A stretch of DNA of 64,000 nt from Deltaproteobacteria bacterium (GTDB lineage: Bacteria > Desulfobacterota > Desulfobacteria > Desulfobacterales > SpSt-501). Each line of letters begins with the position of its first letter. Position 1 is the stretch's first letter. Location of the stretch: positions 33,488-97,487 of the forward strand of contig JACRCN010000087.1 of the NCBI GenBank assembly GCA_016219005.1. The letters run 5' to 3'. Under the pieces are notes generated by a model. It searched no databases. It was not told the DNA's origin and was given only the letters and a program-made list of their open reading frames with translations. The position numbers and the translations under genes were made by a program. Shown in pieces: positions 15,303 to 32,615 of the stretch.

Positions 15303-16349
15303 ATGTCAGGGAAAAGACCAGTTTACAGCTTTTCGGTATTCGTGGCAGCCCTTGTCGCCGTTTTTACTTTTTCGGCGATCGATCCGGCTAACGCGCAGGA
15401 GCGCAAGTCGATCCGCTGGGCCACCTCCAGCACCGGTTCATACGGGTATAAGGTCGCGGCCCAGATGGTCAAAGTGCTGGAGGACGCGCTGGGTGGCCAA
15501 TACACCGTCACCGTCAATCCGTATCCATCGACGACCGCCGCTATGAAGGCGACCATGGATGGCGATGCGGAGATCGGCTACACCGCCGACGTCGGGATGG
15601 CCGATGTCTACAAGGGCGAAGGCGCCTTCAAGGATTACAAGCCCGCCAAGTCGAGGATGGTCCACACCTGGTATGCGTACCCGATGGAGTCGTTCATGGC
15701 CGTGTATGCCCCGAAGGCCGACCAGTTCAAGTCCTGGGGCGACTTCAGCGGCAAGCCGGTGTTCTTCACCCCCGCCGGCTTCATGAACTGGCTGAATTTC
15801 CGGCGCATCTACAAGGCGCTGGGCTACAACTTCAAGCATGTCCAGATCGGCGAGGCGGCCCAGGGCGACGCGCTCCAGGCCGGCACCATCGTCGGCGCTG
15901 TCTGCTATACGACCGCCGGCAAGTCCCTTCCGTCCTACTGGCGCGAGACCGAGCTGCGCCTGGACATCAAGTTGATCAACCCGAGCCCGGATGAAGTCAA
16001 GAAGCTGACCGCGGCGAACCTCGCGCCCACGGAGATCGATGCGACGAAGGTATTCAGCAAGGATGTCGGCGTGAAGACGGTCCTGGGCGTGCCCCTCCTG
16101 TTCGCCTACAACATGCTGGCGGATATGCCCGAGGAGATCGTCTACAAGATGCTGAGCAAGTTCTATGCTGAACGCGATAACCTTGCCAAGGCCGACCCGG
16201 GTTTCGAACCCATGGCGCGCGACTTTATCGGCATGCAGGTGAAAGGCATCAACGGCGAGCCGGACGCTCCCGTACATGCGGGGCTGGCGAAGTTCCTCAA
16301 GGAGCACAAGGCCTGGAACGACAAGTGGAAGATCGCCGGCAGCAAGTGA
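15303..16349 (+). CDS. TAXI family TRAP transporter solute-binding subunit
   Basis: Sec-type signal peptide, RWATSSTGSYGYKVAAQMVKVLEDAL; followed by a TRAP permease. Confidence 0.88.
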   Translation: MSGKRPVYSFSVFVAALVAVFTFSAIDPANAQERKSIRWATSSTGSYGYKVAAQMVKVLEDALGGQYTVTVNPYPSTTAAMKATMDGDAEIGYTADVGMADVYKGEGAFKDYKPAKSRMVHTWYAYPMESFMAVYAPKADQFKSWGDFSGKPVFFTPAGFMNWLNFRRIYKALGYNFKHVQIGEAAQGDALQAGTIVGAVCYTTAGKSLPSYWRETELRLDIKLINPSPDEVKKLTAANLAPTEIDATKVFSKDVGVKTVLGVPLLFAYNMLADMPEEIVYKMLSKFYAERDNLAKADPGFEPMARDFIGMQVKGINGEPDAPVHAGLAKFLKEHKAWNDKWKIAGSK

Positions 16350-16531
16350 TCGCGCAATCGGACGCCCGGGGGTGAGGACCTGCGCCGCACAGGCGCCGGT
16401 CCTCGCCCGGCCCGCTTACCGCGGGGTTCGGCCGAGCACCGGACGTCCGATCCGTTGACCGCCCGCACCCGCCGTATCTGCGCCGCAGTTCGGCAGTCGA
16501 AAGGCCATCTGGATCGAAAGGAGAGAAAGCC

Positions 16532-18493
16532 GTGCTGAGTGAGCAACTCAAGCCGTACGCCAATGTCAAGAACCTGAGGTTTGTCTTATCGCTCGTTATG
16601 TTCGTCTGGCTGGGGTGGTACTTTTACACCGGCTTTGGAGGCCCGAGTGAACTCGTGGCGGCCCTTGTGCCGATCGCCATGATGCTGCAGATCCTGTGCA
16701 TGCATGAAAATGGTTATATTTACAAGCGACTGCCGCCCATCGCCAATCATGTCCTTGTCGCTATCTATCTTGCCGTCTGCCTTTTTGCCTTCTACCATTT
16801 CGTGACGGAGTACGAACAGATCGCGATCTGGCGACAGGGCTCCTACACCCGGATGGACTTCATCATGGGTTTGCTGGTTTTCCTCCTGGTGATGGAACTG
16901 TCGCGGATCGCCCATTCGGAGCTGTTTTGGATGAACGTGGTATTGGTTTTCTACACCCTGTGGGGCTATCTGAGTCCGATTGATTTCTTCTGGCACCCGG
17001 GGACCACGTTTTACCGGGTGATCACATCGAGCACGGTCGAGCTCGCGACCGGCATTTACGGGCAGTACTCCCAGATCGCGCTGACGACGATCGCGGCATT
17101 CCTGCTCTTGGCCGCGGCGGCGCGCGGGTTCGATGCCCAGGGGGCGATGGTCCATTTCATGCGGCGCATCGCCGGGAAGTCGCGGGCTACGATCCCTCAG
17201 ACGGCGGTGCTCGCCTCGTCCGCGGTCGGCATGATCAGCGGCAGCGGCGCGGCCAACGCCACGGTGGTCGGCGCTTTCACGATCCCGCTGATGAAACGCT
17301 ACGGCTTTCCGGGTGAGTTCGCCGGAGCGGTGGAGACCGCGGCTTCGATGGGCGGGCTCATTATGCCGCCGGTCATGGCGGTCGCCGGTTTCGTGATGGC
17401 GGAATTCCTCGGCGTGTCTTACTGGAGCGTAACGCTGCGCGGCTTCTCCCTCGCCTTCGTCTACTACGCCACGCTCGGCCTGTCCGTTTATCTGCTGAGC
17501 GTGAGACTGATGCCCGCCGATCCGATCGAGAAAACAACCATTCCGATGTACGAGCAGATCAAGACGGGGATCTTCTTCCTGGGGATCCTTTTTCTCACCC
17601 TCCTGATGGGGGGGCTCAACTACGGCGAGCAGCTCGCGGGGCTCTATACCGGTGCCTTCATGTTCGCGCTCCTCATCCTGCTCTATCTTTTTTTCAAGTA
17701 CGTGTTGAAGGACCCTGTGGCGGATAAGGATGCGCTTTTAAAGAACATCCGCATCATGATCGAGACGCATGCCGAGCTGACCTCCTATCTGACGCTGCTG
17801 CTGTGCACGCTCGGCATCATGGTCGGCCTGTTCACCGTGACCGGCTTCATCAACCGCATGGGGGGCATGATGCTGCGGGTCGGCGAGTTTAACATCATCG
17901 CACTGGTTTTGATGGCCTGGGTGTTCGGCTGGCTGGTCGGCGCCGGCCTGCCGCCGACGGCCACCTATATCGTGCTGGCGGTCATCATCGTGGACCCCTT
18001 GCGCAAGCTCGGCATCGATCCCTGGGTCGCGCATTTCTTCTGCTTTTTGATCGCGGTCTGGGGCGAATTGTCGCCGCCGACCTCGCTCGCGGCGGCGGTC
18101 TCGGCACGAATCGCGGAGGCGTCATTCGTAAAGACCATGTTTGAGGCGCTGAAACTCTGCCTCCCCGTCACCCTCATGACGTTTGCCATCTTCATCCGCT
18201 CCGAGCTTGTGACAAAGCCGGGCTGGGGGCAGATCGTGGATACGCTGCTCGTGGCAATCGCCTGCTGCGGCATCACCTTCGCCTTGTTCGGGCGGGTTGT
18301 CCGCAATCAGCGCTCGGACGTGATGCTGCGCGTGGTGCTGGCCATAGCCTCGTTCATGGTGATGTTCCATCCGGACGGCAACATAGCGCTTGGGGCGGCC
18401 ATCTGTGTGCTGCCGGCAACGATCTACAGCACTCTCTGCCACCGGCGGATCGCCCGGCCGAGGAGCGCGCTGGAGCAGGTGCCCGTCAGCTGA
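16532..18493 (+). CDS. TRAP transporter fused 4TM/12TM permease
   Basis: GTG start; SGSGAANATVVGAFTIPLMKRYGFPGEFAGAVETAASMGGLIMPPVMAVAGFVMAEFLG DctM signature. Confidence 0.93.
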   Translation: MLSEQLKPYANVKNLRFVLSLVMFVWLGWYFYTGFGGPSELVAALVPIAMMLQILCMHENGYIYKRLPPIANHVLVAIYLAVCLFAFYHFVTEYEQIAIWRQGSYTRMDFIMGLLVFLLVMELSRIAHSELFWMNVVLVFYTLWGYLSPIDFFWHPGTTFYRVITSSTVELATGIYGQYSQIALTTIAAFLLLAAAARGFDAQGAMVHFMRRIAGKSRATIPQTAVLASSAVGMISGSGAANATVVGAFTIPLMKRYGFPGEFAGAVETAASMGGLIMPPVMAVAGFVMAEFLGVSYWSVTLRGFSLAFVYYATLGLSVYLLSVRLMPADPIEKTTIPMYEQIKTGIFFLGILFLTLLMGGLNYGEQLAGLYTGAFMFALLILLYLFFKYVLKDPVADKDALLKNIRIMIETHAELTSYLTLLLCTLGIMVGLFTVTGFINRMGGMMLRVGEFNIIALVLMAWVFGWLVGAGLPPTATYIVLAVIIVDPLRKLGIDPWVAHFFCFLIAVWGELSPPTSLAAAVSARIAEASFVKTMFEALKLCLPVTLMTFAIFIRSELVTKPGWGQIVDTLLVAIACCGITFALFGRVVRNQRSDVMLRVVLAIASFMVMFHPDGNIALGAAICVLPATIYSTLCHRRIARPRSALEQVPVS

Positions 18494-18754: not shown

Positions 18755-21187
18755 TCAAACCCCATGCTCGGCGCGCGATAATATTTCCTGCTGAATGTCT
18801 TTGCTCAATAGCACGAAGTAGTCGGAGTACCCGGCCACGCGGATCAGCAGGTTGCGGTGCTCCTCCGGCCGGTCCATGGCATCCAGCAGGATCTTCCGGT
18901 CGACGATGTTGAACTGCATGTGGAAGCCCCCCTGGGCAAAGTAGGTCCGGATGAGAGCGGCGAGCTTCTGCAGGTCACGGTCGCTCTTCACCGTCTGGGG
19001 GCTGATCTTGATGTTGAGCAGGGTTCCGTTGGTCCGGGCGTGGTCCAACTTGGACACCGAGCGCGTGGAGGCGGTGGGGCCCTTGCGGTCATGGCCCTGA
19101 ACCGGGCTCACCCCCTCGGACAGCCAGGCCCGGGCATGCCGGCCGTCCGGCGTCGCGCCGGTCGCTTCGCCGAGCGAGATGTGGCTCGTGGTGGGCAGCA
19201 GGTCCACCCAATATCTGGCGCCCTGGGTGTCGGAATGGCGTTCCACGGCCGAGCAGAAGATGTCCTGCACCCGCACGGCGAGCTCGTCCGCATACTCGTC
19301 GTCGTTTCCGTAGTGCGGGGTCTTGTTGACCAGCGTCAGGCGCAGGGCCTCCTGCCCCTCCCAGTTGCGGTCAAGCGCGTCAATCAGCTCGGGCATGCCG
19401 ACGGAGCGGTTGTCGAAAACGTGCTTGCGGATGCCGGAAAGCGCGTCGGCCACCGTGCCGACCGCAACCCCGCTCATCGTGGCGATCTTGTAGTGCGACC
19501 CGCCGGCGTGCCAGTCGACGGCCGCGGCGATGCAGTCGTCGACCACGGCCGAGGTGAACGGCACCGGGCAGTAGCGGGCATAAATATCGCGCACGGTGTT
19601 GTCGTAGCGGACCTTCAGCGCCACGAAGTGTTCGACCTGGGCCTCGAAAGCTGCGAGCACCTCATCGAAGCCGGCGAAGGCCCTGGGGTCGCCGGTCTGC
19701 GGCCCCAGGGGCTCGCCCGTCAAACGGTCGACCCCGTTGTTGAGGGCCAGTTCGAGAGCCTTGGCCAGGTTGAAGTAACCGGTGGAGGCCATGCGGTCCT
19801 TGCCGTCGCAGAACACGGCCACACAGCCGTTCAGGCTGCTCGCGCGCGCGTCGCTCAACGTCTTGCCGCGGTTGACCATGCCCAGCACCATGACGTCGGA
19901 GTTGAACATGGCCGGCATGCCGGTGCCCCGCCGCAGGACCTCGCAGCAGCGCATCAAAAATCTGGGCGGCGTGAGCGATGCGATCTGGGCCGAAAGCCCG
20001 GGCTGGGGCAGCAACGTGCGCTCCAAGGCCTCCAGGCACATGAAGGACACCTCGTTCACGGCGTCGCGGCCCTGGCGGGTGAGCCCGCCGATGTTCAGGT
20101 TCTGGAACTCGGGGTAGGAGCTCGAGGTCTGGACTTCGCCCGAGTCCTTGGCCAGGGTGATTTCGTCGAGCTTGACCCACAACAGGTCGAGCAATTCCTG
20201 GGCTTGCGCCTGGGTGATCTCGCCCGAATCGATGCTGTGGCGGTAGTAGGGATAGATGTACTGGTCGAAGCGGCCCGGCCCGAAGGCGTGGCCGTCGGTC
20301 TCGAGGTTGAGCATCAACTGCGTGATCCAAAAGGACTGCAACGCCTCCTGGAAGGTGACCGCCGGCTTGGCCGGAACCCGGTCCAGGATGGCGGCGGTCG
20401 CCAACAGCTCGGAGCGGCGAACGGGGTCGGACTGCAGAACGGCCAGGTGCCGCGCCTCGGCGGCGTAGCGGCCGGCTAAAAGCACCGCGGCCTCGCAGGC
20501 CATGATCACCGACTGCAGGAACTGGCGCTTGTGCACGCAATCCCGGTCGTGGGTGCCGAGCCGGGCCAGGGATTGCTCCACCTGGGCGACGATGCCCTCC
20601 ACGCCATGGGTGAGCACCTTCGCGTAGCCGGCGTTGATGTGGCCGATGGTGCGGGAGCGGAAGTAGTTGTAGATCAGGCCACACTCGTCGGCCCGCCAGA
20701 TGTCGGCCGGCACGGCTTCCATGATCCGGTCGCCGATCTGCCGGCCCTTCCAGTAGGGAAACACCTCCGCCCGCAGGATCTGCTTGGTTGGTTCGCTCAC
20801 ATGGAAAGGTGTGCTGCTGCGGGTGGCCAGCCGGTCGAGGTCGCGCTCCACCCAGTCGCAGCTGACCTCGGGGAACACGGGTGAGCCGCGCGGGGTCAGG
20901 GCCTTCATGCCGACGATGAGCTCGCCCTCCTGGATCTTCACCGGGTGCTCGGTCACGATGCGCAGGAGCATCCGGCCCCGGCGGGTGGTGAGCGGCTGCC
21001 CCTCGGTCTCCCGGTAGCTGCGCGTCACGGAAACGGCCCGCTCCGGGTGCAGCTCGGGCGGAGTCTTGCGGTTGCGTTCGATCCCTTGCTGCACACGGGC
21101 GCTGGGCCCGGTCTGGCCGACGCCCGATTTCCCGGTCGCAGCTTCGATGGGGATCGGCCTGTGGGTTTCAAGACGGACCGTCGTCAT
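18755..21187 (-). CDS. Glycyl radical enzyme (PFL-like/dehydratase-lyase superfamily), substrate unknown
   Basis: C-terminal IRVAGYSDYFVLLSKDIQQEI glycyl radical motif; internal SLNGCVAVFCDGKDRMASTGYFNLAKALELALNNG thiyl-loop region; EFQNLNIGGLTRQGRDAVNEVSFMCLEA. Confidence 0.95.
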   Translation of the reverse strand: MTTVRLETHRPIPIEAATGKSGVGQTGPSARVQQGIERNRKTPPELHPERAVSVTRSYRETEGQPLTTRRGRMLLRIVTEHPVKIQEGELIVGMKALTPRGSPVFPEVSCDWVERDLDRLATRSSTPFHVSEPTKQILRAEVFPYWKGRQIGDRIMEAVPADIWRADECGLIYNYFRSRTIGHINAGYAKVLTHGVEGIVAQVEQSLARLGTHDRDCVHKRQFLQSVIMACEAAVLLAGRYAAEARHLAVLQSDPVRRSELLATAAILDRVPAKPAVTFQEALQSFWITQLMLNLETDGHAFGPGRFDQYIYPYYRHSIDSGEITQAQAQELLDLLWVKLDEITLAKDSGEVQTSSSYPEFQNLNIGGLTRQGRDAVNEVSFMCLEALERTLLPQPGLSAQIASLTPPRFLMRCCEVLRRGTGMPAMFNSDVMVLGMVNRGKTLSDARASSLNGCVAVFCDGKDRMASTGYFNLAKALELALNNGVDRLTGEPLGPQTGDPRAFAGFDEVLAAFEAQVEHFVALKVRYDNTVRDIYARYCPVPFTSAVVDDCIAAAVDWHAGGSHYKIATMSGVAVGTVADALSGIRKHVFDNRSVGMPELIDALDRNWEGQEALRLTLVNKTPHYGNDDEYADELAVRVQDIFCSAVERHSDTQGARYWVDLLPTTSHISLGEATGATPDGRHARAWLSEGVSPVQGHDRKGPTASTRSVSKLDHARTNGTLLNIKISPQTVKSDRDLQKLAALIRTYFAQGGFHMQFNIVDRKILLDAMDRPEEHRNLLIRVAGYSDYFVLLSKDIQQEILSRAEHGV

Positions 21188-21217: not shown

Positions 21218-21994
21218 CTATGATGATGGTGCGCGATGCTTGACCGGCGCGCGGACCGCGGACCGCGCCCTGCCCCCGGCGGCCGATCTCTGCTGCATGA
21301 CCGTGGTGGCACGATGCACATGCCCCCGGGCGAGACTTTCGGCGCGCTCCGCATCACCCCGGGACACCGCCGTGACGATCTCTTTCAATTCCGCGAGAGT
21401 GGTCTGAATCGTTTCCTCATCCCGGGGCAAATACGCGCTGATGTGGTAACGATGGAAATTGCTGTGCACGGTTTCCAGAAAAAAATGGTGCAGGGGATTT
21501 CCGGCGATGCGCGCGAGAGCCAGGTGTATTTCCCTGTCCACCTGCATGAACTCATCCCATTTCGCAGCACCCGATTGAGCCAGATCCGCCGCCTGTTTCA
21601 GCAGCCGCTTGAGCTCGCCCATGTTTTTGGAGCCGGCCCGCAGGGCCGCCCGGCGGGTCAGCAACCCCTCGAGGTCCTGCCGGAACTCCGAAATCTCCTC
21701 CATCGTGATGCGCCGGGATCGAACGAAAAGCCCAAGGCTTTCGATCATGGAATCGGCGTTGATCTCCTTGACGAAGATTCCGCCGCGGTGGCCCTTGCGG
21801 ATCTCCACCAACCCCTTCTGCTCCAGCACCCGCAGGGATTCCCGCAGCGTGTTGCGGCTGACGTCCATCAGCACCTGCAGTTCGCGCTCGGAGGGCAGTC
21901 GATCGCCGGCGGAAAGGCGGCCTTGGAGGATGGCGGCCTCCATCTGATGGATGACGCTCTCGAAGGCGCGCACTTGTCGCACTTTAGTGAACAT
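21218..21994 (-). CDS. GntR-family (FadR/FCD) transcriptional regulator
   Basis: GRLSAGDRLPSERELQVLMDVSRNTLRESLRVLEQKGLVEIRKGHRGGIFV winged helix plus all-alpha FCD domain. Start chosen at MFTKVRQ. Confidence 0.93.
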   Translation of the reverse strand: MFTKVRQVRAFESVIHQMEAAILQGRLSAGDRLPSERELQVLMDVSRNTLRESLRVLEQKGLVEIRKGHRGGIFVKEINADSMIESLGLFVRSRRITMEEISEFRQDLEGLLTRRAALRAGSKNMGELKRLLKQAADLAQSGAAKWDEFMQVDREIHLALARIAGNPLHHFFLETVHSNFHRYHISAYLPRDEETIQTTLAELKEIVTAVSRGDAERAESLARGHVHRATTVMQQRSAAGGRARSAVRAPVKHRAPSS

Positions 21995-22077
21995 GGAAGG
22001 GGCCGGGTGTTCCGTCTTGGACGGTGGGTGTTGGCCGGGCTCCTGATGACCCAAACACCAGGTTGCCTGAAAAATCA

Positions 22078-22115
22078 ATGGTTCAACCATACTTTATTCT
22101 GAACGGTGCTGTCAA
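22078..22115 (-). promoter_or_regulatory. Promoter and FadR-type operator upstream of the GntR-GRE operon
   Basis: Palindrome ATGGTTCAACCAT (22078-22090) matches TGGTnnnACCA; minus-strand TTGACA (22110-22115)-N18-TATGGT (22086-22091), the -10 overlapping the palindrome. Confidence 0.6.
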
Positions 22116-25817: not shown

Positions 25818-27509
25818 TCAATTTTTGGCTTCTTCATGACGCGCCCCCTTTTCCCCCTTCGAAATCCGCCTGCGTTCATCGTCACGGATCTCGCGCCGGA
25901 GCAGTTTGCCGACTTTTGATTTCGGAAGCATGTCCCTGAATTCGATGTAAGCCGGAACCTTATAGGGCGCCAGACGGTCCCGACACCACTTGATCAATTC
26001 GGTACCGCCCACACCGCGAGCATCCTCCTTCAAGACGACTATGGCTTTGATCCGCTCCCCCACCTTGGGATCCGGAACACCCACCACGCACGCACCGATC
26101 ACCGTTGGGTTGTCCTGGAGGGTGGCCTCCACTTCGGAGGCAGACACGCGGTACCCTTTGTGCTTGATGATGTCGGCGGACCTTTCGACATAAATCAGCT
26201 CACCCGTCGGTTTTGCACTGACGAAGTCCCCCATGCGGCACCACGTTTTTCCGTTGAGCTCGATAAATGCCTTGCGGGTTTCCTCGGGCTTTTGATAGTA
26301 CTCTTTTATCGTGAAAGGGGAAGTGACCAGAAGCTCTCCGCTCTGGTCCCCGACCACCGGTTCGAGGGTCTCTGGCTCCACAATCAGGCATTCCCGGCTT
26401 TTCAAGGGAAAGCCTATGGCCCTTGGACTGGGCTCTACGCCGATCTTGCTGTAGGCCACATGCCCCACTTCAGTGGAGCCGTAAACCTGGTAGATGGGGA
26501 TGCCGCAGCGCTCCCGCCACCGTTTCTTTACTTCCTCGGGGAGAACATCTCCACCACAGAAACAAAATTTCAGCGAACTCAGATCGTAGCGCTCGAGCCG
26601 GTCGTGTTCGAGTATCATCCGGTAAAGCGTCGGAACGCCAAGCATCCACCGAACACGGTTTCGTGCGATCGTCGCCAGAATTGCGTCTACCTGGGGGACC
26701 GGCATCAGCATAACGGTGTTGCCCTTGTTCAAGCCGACGGCCATGAACAGGCCCAACGCCATGATATGAAACAGCGGATTGATGGCAATATAGGTGTCTG
26801 CGCCTTCCATGAGATGATCGCCGCCCACGTCTTCGGTGACGTCGTTCACGTAGGAGGTCATGCCGATGTGCGTGCCCTGCACGCCCTTGGGGAACCCGGT
26901 GGTGCCGCCGGTGTAGAGAATGTAGGACAAATCCTTCCACGGATCAATCGCCGTCTTTCCCGCCAAGGGCGGGTGAGCCAACATCGATCGGAAGGAAATG
27001 ACCCGGTCGTTCTTTTCGATCTTTCCGGAAGGGATCTTGTCGAAAAGCACGCCCAGATATTTTTTCCAAGGAGGGAGAAGATCCGCCATGTTTGTCACAA
27101 TCACCCGTTTAAGGCCGGTTTTGGCGGATGCTTCTTTGACGTAGCAATAATTGGTGTCCATGCAGATGGCTGTTTCGACACCGGAGTTCTCGACCATATA
27201 GGCGATTTCGTGGGAGGTATATATCGGAGATACCGGCACGACCACGGCGCCGACCTTCTGGATGCCCAAAAAAGCGATGACCCACTGGATGGAGTTGGCG
27301 ATGTAAATCATCACCCGATCGCCCTTGCCGACGCCCAAGCCGGCCAAGGCACCGGCAAAACGCTCGCTCAATTCCTTCAGGCGGCGATATGAGAAGCGTT
27401 CCCCGAGATAGAAAATGGCGGTTTGGTCCGGATACCGCTCGCTCATCCTGTCGAACCGTGTGAACGTCAGTTCACTTTCGAGTGCATCGCCGTGGGCAGG
27501 CATCTCCAA
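25818..27509 (-). CDS. AMP-dependent acyl-CoA synthetase/ligase
   Basis: YILYTGGTTGFPKGVQGTH (P-loop), YQVYGSTEVG, KHKGYRVSASEVE, PKSKVGKLLRREIRD. Confidence 0.95.
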   Translation of the reverse strand: MEMPAHGDALESELTFTRFDRMSERYPDQTAIFYLGERFSYRRLKELSERFAGALAGLGVGKGDRVMIYIANSIQWVIAFLGIQKVGAVVVPVSPIYTSHEIAYMVENSGVETAICMDTNYCYVKEASAKTGLKRVIVTNMADLLPPWKKYLGVLFDKIPSGKIEKNDRVISFRSMLAHPPLAGKTAIDPWKDLSYILYTGGTTGFPKGVQGTHIGMTSYVNDVTEDVGGDHLMEGADTYIAINPLFHIMALGLFMAVGLNKGNTVMLMPVPQVDAILATIARNRVRWMLGVPTLYRMILEHDRLERYDLSSLKFCFCGGDVLPEEVKKRWRERCGIPIYQVYGSTEVGHVAYSKIGVEPSPRAIGFPLKSRECLIVEPETLEPVVGDQSGELLVTSPFTIKEYYQKPEETRKAFIELNGKTWCRMGDFVSAKPTGELIYVERSADIIKHKGYRVSASEVEATLQDNPTVIGACVVGVPDPKVGERIKAIVVLKEDARGVGGTELIKWCRDRLAPYKVPAYIEFRDMLPKSKVGKLLRREIRDDERRRISKGEKGARHEEAKN

Positions 27510-27560
27510 TCGGACTCCTTCTATCGGGTTCTGATCTCTGAAAAAAAAGAACGCTCTCGA

Positions 27561-28307
27561 TTAAATCCCGAAATAGGCTGAACGCACATCCGGGTTGTTC
27601 ATCAGCTCTTCCCGTGTGCCCTCCAGAACGGCTGAGCCGTTTTCCAGAATGAAGGCGTAGTTTATGATAGGAATGACCGGCCGCGCGTACTGTTCGGTAA
27701 TGATGATGGAGATTTTTCGCTCATCCCGGATTTCCCGCGTGGCATGCATCAGCATGGCCTGCATCAATGGGCTAAGGCCCAGCAAAGGCTCATCAAGGAG
27801 AAGTATTTTCGGCTGCGCCATAAGCGCCCGGCCAATGGCCAGCATCTGCTGCTCGCCGCCGCTCAAAAAGCCGCCCAGCCGGCTTTTGAGCTTTGTGAGG
27901 GCTGGAAAAACCTTGAATACATATTCCAGGGTTTCCTGCGCCTGGGCGGCCGTTGCCAGGTAACCCCCAATTTTCAGGTTTTCCAGGACGCTGCATTCCT
28001 TGAAGATACGGCGGCGCTCCGGACAAAGGACTATTCCAAGCCGTGCCCGGCGGCTGGATTTCGAGGCCATGATCTCCTGGTCCCGGTATCGGATGCTGCC
28101 GGTGAGGGTGATGCGCTCCCCTCCGGCCATTTCTTCCTTTTTGCGGATATCGAGCATGATGCCGGACAGCGCATACATAAGCGTGGACTTGCCGGCGCTG
28201 TTAGCACCAAACACCCCGACAATCTGGTTTTCACCGCATCGGATGCTCACATTGTTGAGGGCCAGCATGTTTTCGTAAAACACCATGAGACCGGTCGCCT
28301 CAAGCAT
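27561..28307 (-). CDS. livF: Branched-chain amino acid-type ABC transporter ATPase (LivF-like)
   Basis: GANSAGKSTLM Walker A, LSGGEQQMLAIGRALM signature, LLLDEPLLGLSP Walker B. Confidence 0.9.
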   Translation of the reverse strand: MLEATGLMVFYENMLALNNVSIRCGENQIVGVFGANSAGKSTLMYALSGIMLDIRKKEEMAGGERITLTGSIRYRDQEIMASKSSRRARLGIVLCPERRRIFKECSVLENLKIGGYLATAAQAQETLEYVFKVFPALTKLKSRLGGFLSGGEQQMLAIGRALMAQPKILLLDEPLLGLSPLMQAMLMHATREIRDERKISIIITEQYARPVIPIINYAFILENGSAVLEGTREELMNNPDVRSAYFGI

Positions 28308-29088
28308 GGCGCATCACCTCCTCGACCTTCTCCGAGCCGAAATAGGCTTCTCGGACCCGAGGGTCGGCCATCACCTCCGCGGCGGATCCCTCGACCAGTT
28401 TCTCACCAAAATTCAGCACCAGAACCCGGTCGGCAACCTTGAAAAGCTCCCGAAGGCGGTGTTCAATCATGATCAACGTGATGCCGCTCATCTGGAGCCG
28501 TTCGATCAAGGGCACCATGCTTGCGATTTCGCTCATGCTCAAGCCGGAGAAAACCTCATCGCAGATGATCAGCTCGGGTTTGAGCGCCAGGCAGCGGGCC
28601 AACTCCAGTCGCTTGAGATAGCCGGTCGGAAGGGTCGACGTCACCTTGAAGGGCACGTAGGAGTCCCGCTCGAAACCGATTTCCTCCAGGATATCGATGC
28701 CGACGGTGTTCCGGTCGCCGCGCCGGCCGCCGCCGCGCCAGCCGCCGGTGCGCCTGGCCCGGGGGGAAAAGAGCGGGATCACCAGATTCTTGTAGGCGGG
28801 CAAGCTGAAATAGGGGCGCATGATCTGGAAAGTCCGCGTCAGTCCCATATCGGCAATTTTGTGGGGAGGTTTTCCGGTGATGTTCTTGCCCCGGAACAGG
28901 ATGCGGCCGGAAGAAGGCTTAACAAAACCAGTGATGCAGTTGACGGTGGTTGTTTTTCCGGACCCGTTTGGACCGATGATGCCCAGAATTTCCCCCTCGC
29001 CGACCTCAAAACTTACCCGGTTGAGCGCGATGATGCCGCCGAAGGTTTTGGTTATCTCCTGGATTTGCAGGATCGGCCCCTCCTTCAT
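28300..29088 (-). CDS. livG: Branched-chain amino acid-type ABC transporter ATPase (LivG-like)
   Basis: GPNGSGKTTTVNCITGF Walker A; LivG-like body; start at MKEGPILQ, overlapping livM by 4 nt. The signature region reads LPTGYLKRLELARCLA. Confidence 0.88.
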   Translation of the reverse strand: MKEGPILQIQEITKTFGGIIALNRVSFEVGEGEILGIIGPNGSGKTTTVNCITGFVKPSSGRILFRGKNITGKPPHKIADMGLTRTFQIMRPYFSLPAYKNLVIPLFSPRARRTGGWRGGGRRGDRNTVGIDILEEIGFERDSYVPFKVTSTLPTGYLKRLELARCLALKPELIICDEVFSGLSMSEIASMVPLIERLQMSGITLIMIEHRLRELFKVADRVLVLNFGEKLVEGSAAEVMADPRVREAYFGSEKVEEVMRHA

Positions 29089-30023
29089 ATCTTTTTCCAC
29101 CTTTCGATCTGGTGATATTTCCGTTGGCCATACACCATCAGCCCCTCGCTGCGAAAGACAACGAAGGCCAGCAGGATGAGGGAATAAAAGACGATTCGAA
29201 GCGTGCCGAAATCCCGTAGCAACTCCGACACGGGGACCAGAATGAGGCAGCCGATCACCGGGCCCACCAGGGTCCCGCTGCCGCCGATGACGGTCGCGGC
29301 AATGGGCAGCACTGAAAAGTCGAGGGCAAATGTGGAGATCCCTGCCCACATGTAAATGTGCACCAGGCTGGCTCCGGCAAAACAACCGATGGCCGAAGCG
29401 ATGAACACGGCGAGCGCCTTGTAGGAGGTGATGTTCATTCCAGAGGCCCGCACCGCCTGATCGTTGTCCTTCACGGCGCGCAGCACCAACCCGAGGTCGG
29501 TATTGACCAGTCTGCGCATGCCGAAAAGGAACAGCAACAGCATGCCAATGATGAAATATTGCTCCATCCAGGCGCTCGGTAAGCTATCGATGCCCATGAT
29601 CCCGTCGGTTCCGCCCAGGATATCAAGCGCCTCAATGGCCCGGGCCATGAACAGAGGATACATCAACGTGACAATGGCAAAGTACACGCCACGCAGAGGC
29701 AGGCACGGCAACAGCAGCAGGGTGCAAACGATGCCGCCGATAAGTGTGGCGACGGCTATTGAAAGCAGAGCGGCAAAGCCAAATACGCTGTTTAGGACGG
29801 CCGACAAGTACCCGCCGACCCCCACAAAGAAAGCTCCGCCGAGTGAGACCAAGCCCACCTGGTGCGCCAAGAAGTCGAAACTCAGCGCCAGAAGGGCGTA
29901 TATGCATACGATCGAAATCACCCGCTGCCAGTACATGTCCGGAATCATCAGTGGCGCAACCAGCAGGCCAACGATGATGACGAACCGCGGCATGATCAGG
30001 TACACAAGTTCTCTCCAGGACAT
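29085..30023 (-). CDS. livM: Branched-chain amino acid-type ABC permease (LivM-like)
   Basis: Multi-TM LivM-like protein (FDFLAHQVGLVSLGGAFFVGVGGYLSAVL; LRAVKDNDQAVRASGMN). Start uncertain. Confidence 0.88.
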   Translation of the reverse strand: MSWRELVYLIMPRFVIIVGLLVAPLMIPDMYWQRVISIVCIYALLALSFDFLAHQVGLVSLGGAFFVGVGGYLSAVLNSVFGFAALLSIAVATLIGGIVCTLLLLPCLPLRGVYFAIVTLMYPLFMARAIEALDILGGTDGIMGIDSLPSAWMEQYFIIGMLLLFLFGMRRLVNTDLGLVLRAVKDNDQAVRASGMNITSYKALAVFIASAIGCFAGASLVHIYMWAGISTFALDFSVLPIAATVIGGSGTLVGPVIGCLILVPVSELLRDFGTLRIVFYSLILLAFVVFRSEGLMVYGQRKYHQIERWKKI

Positions 30024-30100
30024 CAACGCGTAAATCCCTTCCGTCCTGACTTTGATGCCCCGATCGATCCTTTCTTTGCGACGCTGGTGCGTTCCCGTGG

Positions 30101-30967
30101 TCAAACGCGCTCCTCCAGTTCCTTCTGCTGGCCGAAAATGCCGGACGGCTTGAAGATGAGTGTCAGAATGATGGCCAGCAGGGCAACGACCATCTGATAA
30201 TGCGACCCCAGATAGACGGCTGTCAGTATCTGTGCAAAACCGATGATAAAAGCAGCCAGAACCGCGCCGGCCCAACTGCCAAGCCCGCCGACGATGCAGA
30301 CGGCGATGGCCAAAATCAGCACATTGTAGCCGGATTCCACCACAATGTTCCCCAGCGGCAGAAGCAACATGGCGCTGAGAGCCGCCAGCGAAGACCCGAG
30401 ACCCATGGCCACAACCGCCATGACATCCGAATCAATCCCCAGCATGAGCGCCGCCCGCTCGTCCTGAGCCATACCCCTCAAAGCCAGGCCGATGCGGGTT
30501 TTGTGTGTAAACAGCCACAAGAAAGCCACCAGAGCCGCCCCGACGCCTACCGTCAGAAGCCGTTGGTAGTCGACCGAGATTCCGCCGATGGCCGCACTGC
30601 CCTCGATGAACGGCGGCAGGGTGTAAGTCATGCCTTTGAATCCGCCCCATCTCAGTCCCTCAAGAATGGCCAGTGCAATTGCATAGGTGGCGATGATTTC
30701 CGAAATCTCCATGCCCCTGATACGTATCAGAAAAAACTGGTAGATGACGGAACCGACAATGGCCGTGACGGCAATGGCCAAAAGGATGCTGAGCAGGTAG
30801 TTGATCCCCAGTATGTTCAGGGCGCTCCAGGCAACGAACCCGCTGAGCACGTACAGTGCGCCGTGGGCAAAATTGGGCAGGCGGCTGATGCCGTACACCA
30901 AGGCGAAACCCAGTGCATAAAGGGCCAGCGCCACACTGTTGATCGTACCGTAGATGATTATATCCAT
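30101..30967 (-). CDS. livH: Branched-chain amino acid-type ABC permease (LivH-like)
   Basis: INSVALALYALGFALVYGISRLPNFAHGALYVLSGF; LALRGMAQDERAALMLGID. Confidence 0.9.
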   Translation of the reverse strand: MDIIIYGTINSVALALYALGFALVYGISRLPNFAHGALYVLSGFVAWSALNILGINYLLSILLAIAVTAIVGSVIYQFFLIRIRGMEISEIIATYAIALAILEGLRWGGFKGMTYTLPPFIEGSAAIGGISVDYQRLLTVGVGAALVAFLWLFTHKTRIGLALRGMAQDERAALMLGIDSDVMAVVAMGLGSSLAALSAMLLLPLGNIVVESGYNVLILAIAVCIVGGLGSWAGAVLAAFIIGFAQILTAVYLGSHYQMVVALLAIILTLIFKPSGIFGQQKELEERV

Positions 30968-31069
30968 TCCGGTTAATCCGTTCAGCGATTGACGCTGATC
31001 CCGGGACCAGCGGGTGGGAAGTTTTTCTCCTGAGTTCGCGATCGCGGAGGCCGGGTGTGGCCCCTGCGT

Positions 31070-32341
31070 TTATTTTTTCATCCAGGGCGGCAGCAGAATT
31101 TCTCCCATGGCAATACTCTTGGGGTATACCACGATCCGTTTGCCGTCCTGCCATTGCAGGATGCTGCCGACAGCACCCTCTTTGGGATCGGTTGAAGGAA
31201 TGATCTGGTGGCTCTTGGGATCGAACCTGACTCTGCCGTATACTCCCACGATATCGGTTTTTTCTAGGGCATCCACAATCTTGCTGGAGTCGAGACTTCC
31301 GGCGCGCAGGATGGCGTCCTTCAAAACATAAACGGCCATATAGCTGCTGGATGTTCCCAGGCCTTCCGGTTCGACCCCCCACCGCTTGGTGTAGGCGTTG
31401 TAGAACTTCATCGTCCATGGAGTGGCGTTGGAAGGGGCATTGCCGGCATTGACCACGTTGCAGAGAGTGAATTCACCCTTGCCGTTGGTTGCTTTCCAGA
31501 AGCCGGGCTGCTCGGCGGCAGCAAGGGTGGAGCCAAAAGGAAGCGCTGGTATTTTCATGTCGTGCCACTGCTTGAGAAGTATGGCGCTTTCGGGCATGTC
31601 CATCCAGATGTTGATTATTTCCGCTTTTGTATCTTTGGCCTTCAGCAGCCCCATTGAAAAATCGGTTGCGCCGGTGGGGTAAATTTCCAGGCCGGTAACA
31701 TTCCATCCCTTTTTGGTAGCGATATCTTTGACGAGTTCGGCCGCGCCGCGGGCGTGGCTGACGTCCTGGGCGACAATGAATAGATTCTTAAACCCGTGCT
31801 TTTCTTTCAGTTCGGTAAAATTGGCGAAAATTTCACCGACCAGGTTCTTGGCTTCACCGTGGATACGGAAGCAGTACTTGAATTTGTCATACTGTTCGGC
31901 CACCAGGTCGGTGTATTTCGGGGTCAGCGCTCCGGTGGTCAGGATGGATACTTTTTTATATTTTGAAAGCAGCGGCATGGCCGCCAGAGCCGCTTCGGAG
32001 CGGACCGGCCCGCCAATAATGAAATCCGCTTTTTTATCCAGGATCAGCTTTTCCATGGCAAGCAGCGCTTCGCTCACCGGCACCCCGGGCTCGAGATCCC
32101 GGGTGTCGATGACTTCTATTTTGAACGGCCGCTTTTCTCCGCCGATCGCCACACCGCCATCGGCATTGATTTCTTCAACCGCGAGGGTAATGCCTCGCTC
32201 GGCGTCCCAGCCGTATAGGAAGGCCATCGAAAGCGGGCATCCAATGACGATCGGTTTTGCGGCTCGAGCGGCTGGTACAAACAGGAGCGACAATCCAATC
32301 AAGAAGAGAAATGTTGAGATCGCACGATGCCGGAGACTCAT
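31070..32341 (-). CDS. ABC transporter substrate-binding protein (LivK/peripla_BP_6 type)
   Basis: Signal peptide, PIVIGCPLSMAFLYGWDAERGITLAVEEINADGGVAIGG. Confidence 0.92.
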   Translation of the reverse strand: MSLRHRAISTFLFLIGLSLLFVPAARAAKPIVIGCPLSMAFLYGWDAERGITLAVEEINADGGVAIGGEKRPFKIEVIDTRDLEPGVPVSEALLAMEKLILDKKADFIIGGPVRSEAALAAMPLLSKYKKVSILTTGALTPKYTDLVAEQYDKFKYCFRIHGEAKNLVGEIFANFTELKEKHGFKNLFIVAQDVSHARGAAELVKDIATKKGWNVTGLEIYPTGATDFSMGLLKAKDTKAEIINIWMDMPESAILLKQWHDMKIPALPFGSTLAAAEQPGFWKATNGKGEFTLCNVVNAGNAPSNATPWTMKFYNAYTKRWGVEPEGLGTSSSYMAVYVLKDAILRAGSLDSSKIVDALEKTDIVGVYGRVRFDPKSHQIIPSTDPKEGAVGSILQWQDGKRIVVYPKSIAMGEILLPPWMKK

Positions 32342-32615
32342 ACTGCACCTCCTTTTCCATTGGAACAACTGGGGTTGGCTATCCGGACATGCACCCGTTC
32401 TCACCGGATTTAAATGCAAAATGGCGGTTATTGGAACAAGAAATTCAATCGAGTTTTTTTGTGGTGTTTTCAGCAATTGCATCGCATGGAACAAAATGAA
32501 TGGTGTTTTTTATTATTATATGTTTTCAGATATGTCAATCGGATTGCTGCGGGCCCAGCGTTCTGATAAACAGGTTATGCTGTTTTTTGAACCCACGTTA
32601 CAGCGGAGGAGCGTG

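Follow-up and report, generated by a model that had tools for sequence, protein, structure and literature searches.

The 64,000-nucleotide stretch of DNA that was analyzed (the window) contained a glycyl radical enzyme (GRE) gene (P0001; 18755..21187; 810 aa; coordinates marked (-), as here (-), lie on the reverse strand) with a GCVA thiyl loop. With its orthologs, the encoded GRE formed a clade (clade A) that was sister to the trans-4-hydroxy-L-proline dehydratase HypD and a second group, clade B. We judge it about an even chance that clade A makes up a subfamily of its own among the glycyl radical eliminases, one that would act on a proline-like substrate with relocated acid-base residues. 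The substrate class is most likely a hydroxyproline stereoisomer or derivative that is not taken by HypD.

The strand and limits originally given for the open reading frame were correct, and the reading frame was intact. The protein matched the Pfam PFL-like (665 bits) and Gly_radical (118 bits) families. Membership of the GRE superfamily was borne out by a C-terminal glycyl radical motif and a buried Cys loop in a PFL-like barrel (Gly786, Cys455, TM ~0.9). The glycyl radical motif, IRVAGYSDYFV, was intact as first described, with the codon of the radical Gly786 (HypD Gly765) at 18830..18832 (-). The thiyl loop read ASSLNGCVAVFCDGKDRMAS (NGCVA): the codons of Gly454-Cys455-Val456-Ala457 spanned exactly 19817..19828 (-), where the original prediction had placed GCVA, with that of Cys455 at 19825-19823. 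Here Ala457 replaces the CXE glutamate, equivalent to Glu436 of HypD. An AlphaFold model of the protein (30 sequences in the alignment) had a mean pLDDT of 89.2 and a pTM of 0.90. Its closest solved folds were glycerol/propanediol dehydratases and HypD (rmsd 1.6-2.1 A; TM 0.93-0.94), with glycerol dehydratase on top and the benzylsuccinate synthases far behind. In total, four GREs were found in the window's genome: the clade A gene, a genuine HypD on C20 that scored 1167.8 bits (cut-off 1100), a sulfopropanediol dehydratase of the HpsG type on C18 with 1532.7 bits (cut-off 1000), and a clade B GRE on C79.

The CXE glutamate has been described as a conserved feature of GRE eliminases, and IslA cannot work without it. 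Whether the loss of this residue was fixed in orthologs was the check proposed originally, and GCVA was present in all nine distinct clade A sequences with a readable loop (the window, L005, L006, L114-L118, and the partial L119). The eight readable relatives among these were 63-85% identical to the window GRE; L007 and L114 are the same entry, as are L008 and L119. Carriers were MAGs named Holophagaceae and Acidobacteria (L005, L006) and MAGs of the Desulfobacterales or of the window's genus or order (L007/L114, L008/L119, L115-L118). Among 131 aligned GRE rows, which include the window's own copy twice, 109 read GC.E and two read GC.D, while clade A was the only group to combine GC with a non-acidic residue at that final position. 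The remaining loop exceptions (ACVY, ACMR, SCMK, and CCVS) were remote GREs without the GC pair. Relatives used either GCC or GCG as the Ala codon, and pairwise dN/dS among clade A orthologs was 0.12-0.40, indicating purifying selection. A sequencing error, one of two findings named at the outset as fatal to novelty, or a decaying gene or pseudogene is therefore excluded as the source of GCVA.

Protein searches of the order, the class, and a sample of the Acidobacteriota phylum recovered clade A only from the order and the two Acidobacteriota MAGs; the clade A sample comprised nine sequences, mostly of one genus. A search of the available literature for GCVA GREs and for N-methyl-hydroxyproline GREs gave no relevant match. 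L006 (9001-11354) departed from the clade near residue 775, out of frame, and its Gly loop was unreadable in the same frame; the break before the loop is either an assembly frameshift or a real one. L006 matched the composition of its own genome (0.97), and its clade A gene looks like a true transfer. L005 may be a mis-binned contig.

In a tree of 63 GREs, support was 100 for clade A, 99 for clades A and B together, and 100 for these two with HypD. A second tree set of 31 rows gave the same ((A,B),HypD) order with support of 96-100. The orthologs thus made up a separate clade outside any characterized GRE family (SH-aLRT 100), as had been suspected, and nesting in a known family with GCVA, the second finding named as fatal, was not seen. 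What the original prediction had missed is that clade A does not stand alone: HypD and clade B are its sister groups, and it retains the proline-binding residues of HypD. Since clade B and HypD both have GCVE, the tree order puts the Glu to Ala replacement, and with it the loss of the CXE glutamate, on clade A's own branch.

Clade B GREs (C79 of the window's own genome; L120-L123) were 45-47% identical to clade A and had the same carboxylate and ring set, but kept GCVE and had Tyr at the Asp278 position, where clade A has GCVA and His. The clade B loci, which are uncharacterized, were L134/L175 (C79), L120-L123, and L176-L179. Neighbors of clade B GREs included an activase, an SDR (L176, L177), and a TRAP transporter (L175), and differed from those of clade A. 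At L178 (9008-13616; G371), the clade B GRE was directly followed by another GRE, which differed in type and had Asn at the His160 position, and two activases lay just 3' of the pair. Another tandem pair of GRE genes, with GCSE loops, was seen at L014 (6357-11346) in a MAG labelled Sulfolobales archaeon; either the GREs are archaeal or the contig was binned wrongly.

The best NCBIfam model for the window GRE was HypD (NF043068), but the score of 747.8 bits was below the curated cut-off of 1100, placing the protein outside HypD itself. Among PDB sequences, phmmer scores were 631 bits for HypD (6vxc/6vxe), 622 for glycerol dehydratase, and 522 and 488 for the N-methyl-cis-4-hydroxyproline dehydratases 8id1 and 8iof. 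HypD and clade A were ~39-40% identical and had in common Ser334, Phe340, Cys434, Tyr450, Thr645, His160, and Gly765 (HypD numbering), as well as a similar type of regulator and an activase. The N-methyl-cis-4-hydroxyproline dehydratases, which are GREs for hydroxyproline derivatives, differed from clade A in keeping GCVE and in having GE rather than GH (without His160); in 8id1, Tyr450 and Thr645 were also replaced. BssA and MasD gave only 254 and 267 bits, and their fold matches were low among GREs, so benzylsuccinate or alkylsuccinate synthase was rejected.

The original prediction had also drawn on a Gly at an Asp position in GHINAGYAKVL. That reading of the segment was right, but the argument built on it is weak because the position after GHxxx is either Gly or Ala within clade A (NAGY, QAGY, QAAY, NVAY) and 8id1 also has Gly there, before the Tyr (TTAGYE, in GETTAGYEMV). 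The mutations made in the HypD study did not include this position.

More can be read from the pocket residues. Mutagenesis of HypD found His160, Asp278, Asp339, Glu436, Ser334, and Phe340 to be essential and Tyr450 and Thr645 to be important; E436Q and D278N were both inactive (PMC7077986). Ser334, Tyr450, and Thr645 hold the substrate carboxylate and Phe340 packs on the ring, while the hydroxyl is contacted by Glu436 and Asp278, the latter of which contacts the amine as well (PMC7077986). In the alignment, every clade A member that covered the columns of Ser334, Phe340, Tyr450, and Thr645 had the HypD residues there. In the window GRE, the carboxylate and ring contacts Ser334 and Phe340, with Asp339 (here Glu360), fell within the codons of Ser355 to Phe361 (20105..20125 (-)), and the other two carboxylate contacts were Tyr471 (HypD Tyr450; 19775..19777 (-)) and Thr666 (HypD Thr645, in LPTT; 19190..19192 (-)). 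His160 was retained as His183 (20639..20641 (-)), and Asp339 was Asp or Glu across the clade. Two residues were changed: Glu436 to Ala457 and Asp278 to His300 (20288..20290 (-)), the latter at the position of the glycerol dehydratase His (GHSISP). The pairing of Asp278 with His300 was clear in the search of PDB sequences and in the 31-row set; the larger alignment has a gap there. Clade A therefore lacks the HypD acid-base set of His160, Asp278, Asp339, and Glu436, of which only the His was kept unchanged, and the altered acid-base chemistry suggested at the outset was upheld insofar as the residue set differs from that of HypD (E436A, D278H). With the anchors kept and the acid-base residues changed, recognition of a proline-like carboxylate and ring was probably preserved, and the surroundings of the amine and hydroxyl would have been rebuilt.

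On this basis, the clade A pocket would bind a proline-like cyclic amino acid, and an activase would put the radical on Gly786. Cys455 would then abstract a hydrogen from the position adjacent to the nitrogen, after which a leaving group beta to the radical, such as a hydroxyl, would depart with proton help from His300, His183, and Asp/Glu360 in place of Glu436 and Asp278. E436Q and D278N inactivate HypD, which counts against this mechanism, since the replacement residues in clade A would have to do real work. An eliminase that dispenses with the CXE glutamate, uses histidines instead, and degrades a hydroxyproline isomer or derivative lacking a known anaerobic enzyme is a reading we hold with somewhat less than even confidence. 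Cis-4-hydroxyproline or a derivative formed from 3,4-dihydroxyproline would be examples of such a substrate, though these are speculation.

The inactive HypD variants also bear on whether clade A could be a second trans-4-hydroxy-L-proline dehydratase that tolerates the loss of Glu436. Such an isozyme would agree with HypD being the best curated profile and with the carboxylate contacts, but it sits poorly with E436Q and D278N, with the gap between 747.8 bits and the cut-off, and with the genomes themselves, since every one of the eight clade A carriers already has a HypD; we consider it quite improbable. Across genomes, HypD was found in 8 of 8 with clade A and in 13 of 52 without it, which fits the hydroxyproline reading, although this co-occurrence is not independent evidence because seven of the eight carriers are of one genus. 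Five of the eight HypD proteins were above the curated cut-off and three were just below it (1055-1090 bits), one of the three being truncated.

A proline-like substrate might also be processed without 1,2-elimination of water, by C-N ring opening or by another glutamate-free cleavage. The missing base alongside retained substrate anchors would suit such a reaction, and HplG (PDB 7vua), which according to the title of its PDB entry is a GRE that breaks a C-N bond to open the hydroxyproline ring, offers a precedent. An alanine-dehydrogenase-like gene in the L005 operon would likewise fit a pathway that releases alanine. However, HplG was one of the less similar of the solved GREs (339.7 bits, where HypD scored 631) and was not among the top PDB matches of any query used, and no aminoketopentanoate thiolase was recognized near clade A GREs; this alternative is unlikely. 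The window GRE is not HplG itself: the two were 28% identical in the fold match with no clade relation seen, and 339.7 bits is below the 438-444 bits that unrelated GREs give HplG.

Hydroxyproline-type neighbors were found in only three of the nine clade A loci: L005, L114, and L118+L174. At L005, genes for LivGF, the alanine-dehydrogenase-like protein, a trans-3-hydroxyproline dehydratase-like protein, the GRE, and the activase lay in a row on one strand. L114 contained a trans-3-hydroxyproline dehydratase-like gene, a complete Liv transporter, the GRE, and GntR. L118+L174 (G010), the richest cluster, contained Liv, activase, GRE, GntR, and aconitase X (AcnX) subunits, together with HypD and its activase, a pyrroline-2-carboxylate-reductase-like OCD protein, and a trans-3-hydroxyproline dehydratase-like protein. 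The Cys/Thr pair is the mark of trans-3-hydroxyproline dehydratases (eLife 2014;3:e03275), and the trans-3-hydroxyproline dehydratase-like proteins had this pair (MCGH, DRSPTG) but scored below the curated family cut-off. The window's genome contained no proline-racemase-family gene. Taken together, the kept proline-binding residues and the three loci among hydroxyproline genes make a proline-like amino acid the probable substrate. Clade A may have a new reaction or substrate, as proposed at the outset.

In G010, enzymes were predicted for trans-4-hydroxyproline (HypD), trans-3-hydroxyproline (the racemase-family dehydratase), and cis-3-hydroxyproline (aconitase X), which leaves cis-4-hydroxyproline as the gap. 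Cis-4-hydroxyproline as the clade A substrate is, by this elimination, a guess that is rather more likely to be wrong than right by a wide measure. Aconitase X and a reductase slowly turn a 3,4-dihydroxyproline into cis-4-hydroxy-L-proline (PMC5144071); the G010 AcnX is of the split type, which is outside the types characterized in that study.

An activase adjoined the clade A GRE in L005, L115, L116, L117, and L118, and none was adjacent in the window or L114, where another activase would have to act. Three activases were detected in the window's genome, each beside another GRE; therefore the clade A GRE must borrow an activase or its own activase gene is missing from the assembly. If the clade A GRE were an inactive paralog retained for some other function, the absence of an adjacent activase in the window genome and G001 would be expected, as would the loss of a glutamate that HypD and IslA both require. 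Against this, the Gly, Cys, His, and all substrate contacts were conserved, dN/dS was 0.12-0.40, and five loci did pair the GRE with an activase, leaving a dead enzyme very improbable.

The first gene of the operon encoded a GntR/FCD regulator (21218..21994 (-); Pfam GntR and FCD), with its start redefined to MFTKVRQVRAF. The start of the 290-aa GntR open reading frame at 22090 falls inside a palindromic operator-like site, and the true start is probably 21994. In L114-L118, the GRE was preceded by a regulator ortholog 49-76% identical to the window's, and several of these loci showed start-stop overlap. The operator-like site, TATGGTTGAACCATT (22077..22091 (-)), overlaps the presumed -10 element; a presumed -35 element, TTGACA (22110..22115 (-)), is 18 bp from TATGGT. 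In six of six aligned upstream regions, the site was identical or had one mismatch, the mismatch being in L118. Exact TATGGTTGAACCATT was found once per genome in G000-G005, at the GntR-GRE locus only; the regulon search of these genomes gave no other exact sites and no extra substrate genes. Near matches (one or two mismatches) in the window's genome were at about the background of the reversed pattern. Exact sites at the locus only, with near matches at background, suggest that GntR is probably a dedicated local regulator.

Convergent with the GRE in the window was a TAXI-TRAP transporter, consisting of a substrate-binding protein and a fused permease (15303..18493 (+)). As a clue to substrate it was set aside: it was not syntenic in relatives, and the TRAP permease close to the L116 and L117 GREs matched it at ~25% identity. 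A different TRAP was seen near the GRE in G002 and G003. Further along the window (25818-32494 (-)) lay an operon for an ABC transporter of the branched-chain amino-acid type, which also included an acyl-CoA-ligase-like gene; the Liv transporters next to relatives' clade A GREs were only 26-40% identical to it.

With a TAXI-TRAP transporter and no hydroxyproline gene as its own neighbor, the window GRE might instead act on an unrelated amino acid or carboxylate (diol, hydroxy acid), using His300 and His183 as in glycerol dehydratase. The His at the HypD Asp278 position and the top fold match point the same way, and the glycerol/1,2-propanediol dehydratases (1r8w, 5i2g, 9rco) had a fold TM of ~0.93 to clade A. 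However, these enzymes have GCVE and lack the contacts that clade A and HypD have in common, with Phe, Phe, and Ser or Val at Ser334, Tyr450, and Thr645. In the 63-GRE tree, they lay elsewhere, and clade A joined HypD. We regard an unrelated substrate as improbable, and the window GRE was not assigned as a glycerol or propanediol dehydratase given its separate branch, its GCVA loop, and RMAS in place of the Trp-His-Asp (WHD) segment.

Overall, a monophyletic sister of HypD that is under selection and has Ala for the CXE Glu is a natural experiment on acid-base residues. It suggests that sulfate-reducer relatives and Acidobacteriota have a further anaerobic route for hydroxyproline-type compounds, one that would stand beyond HypD, HplG, and the N-methyl-hydroxyproline dehydratases.
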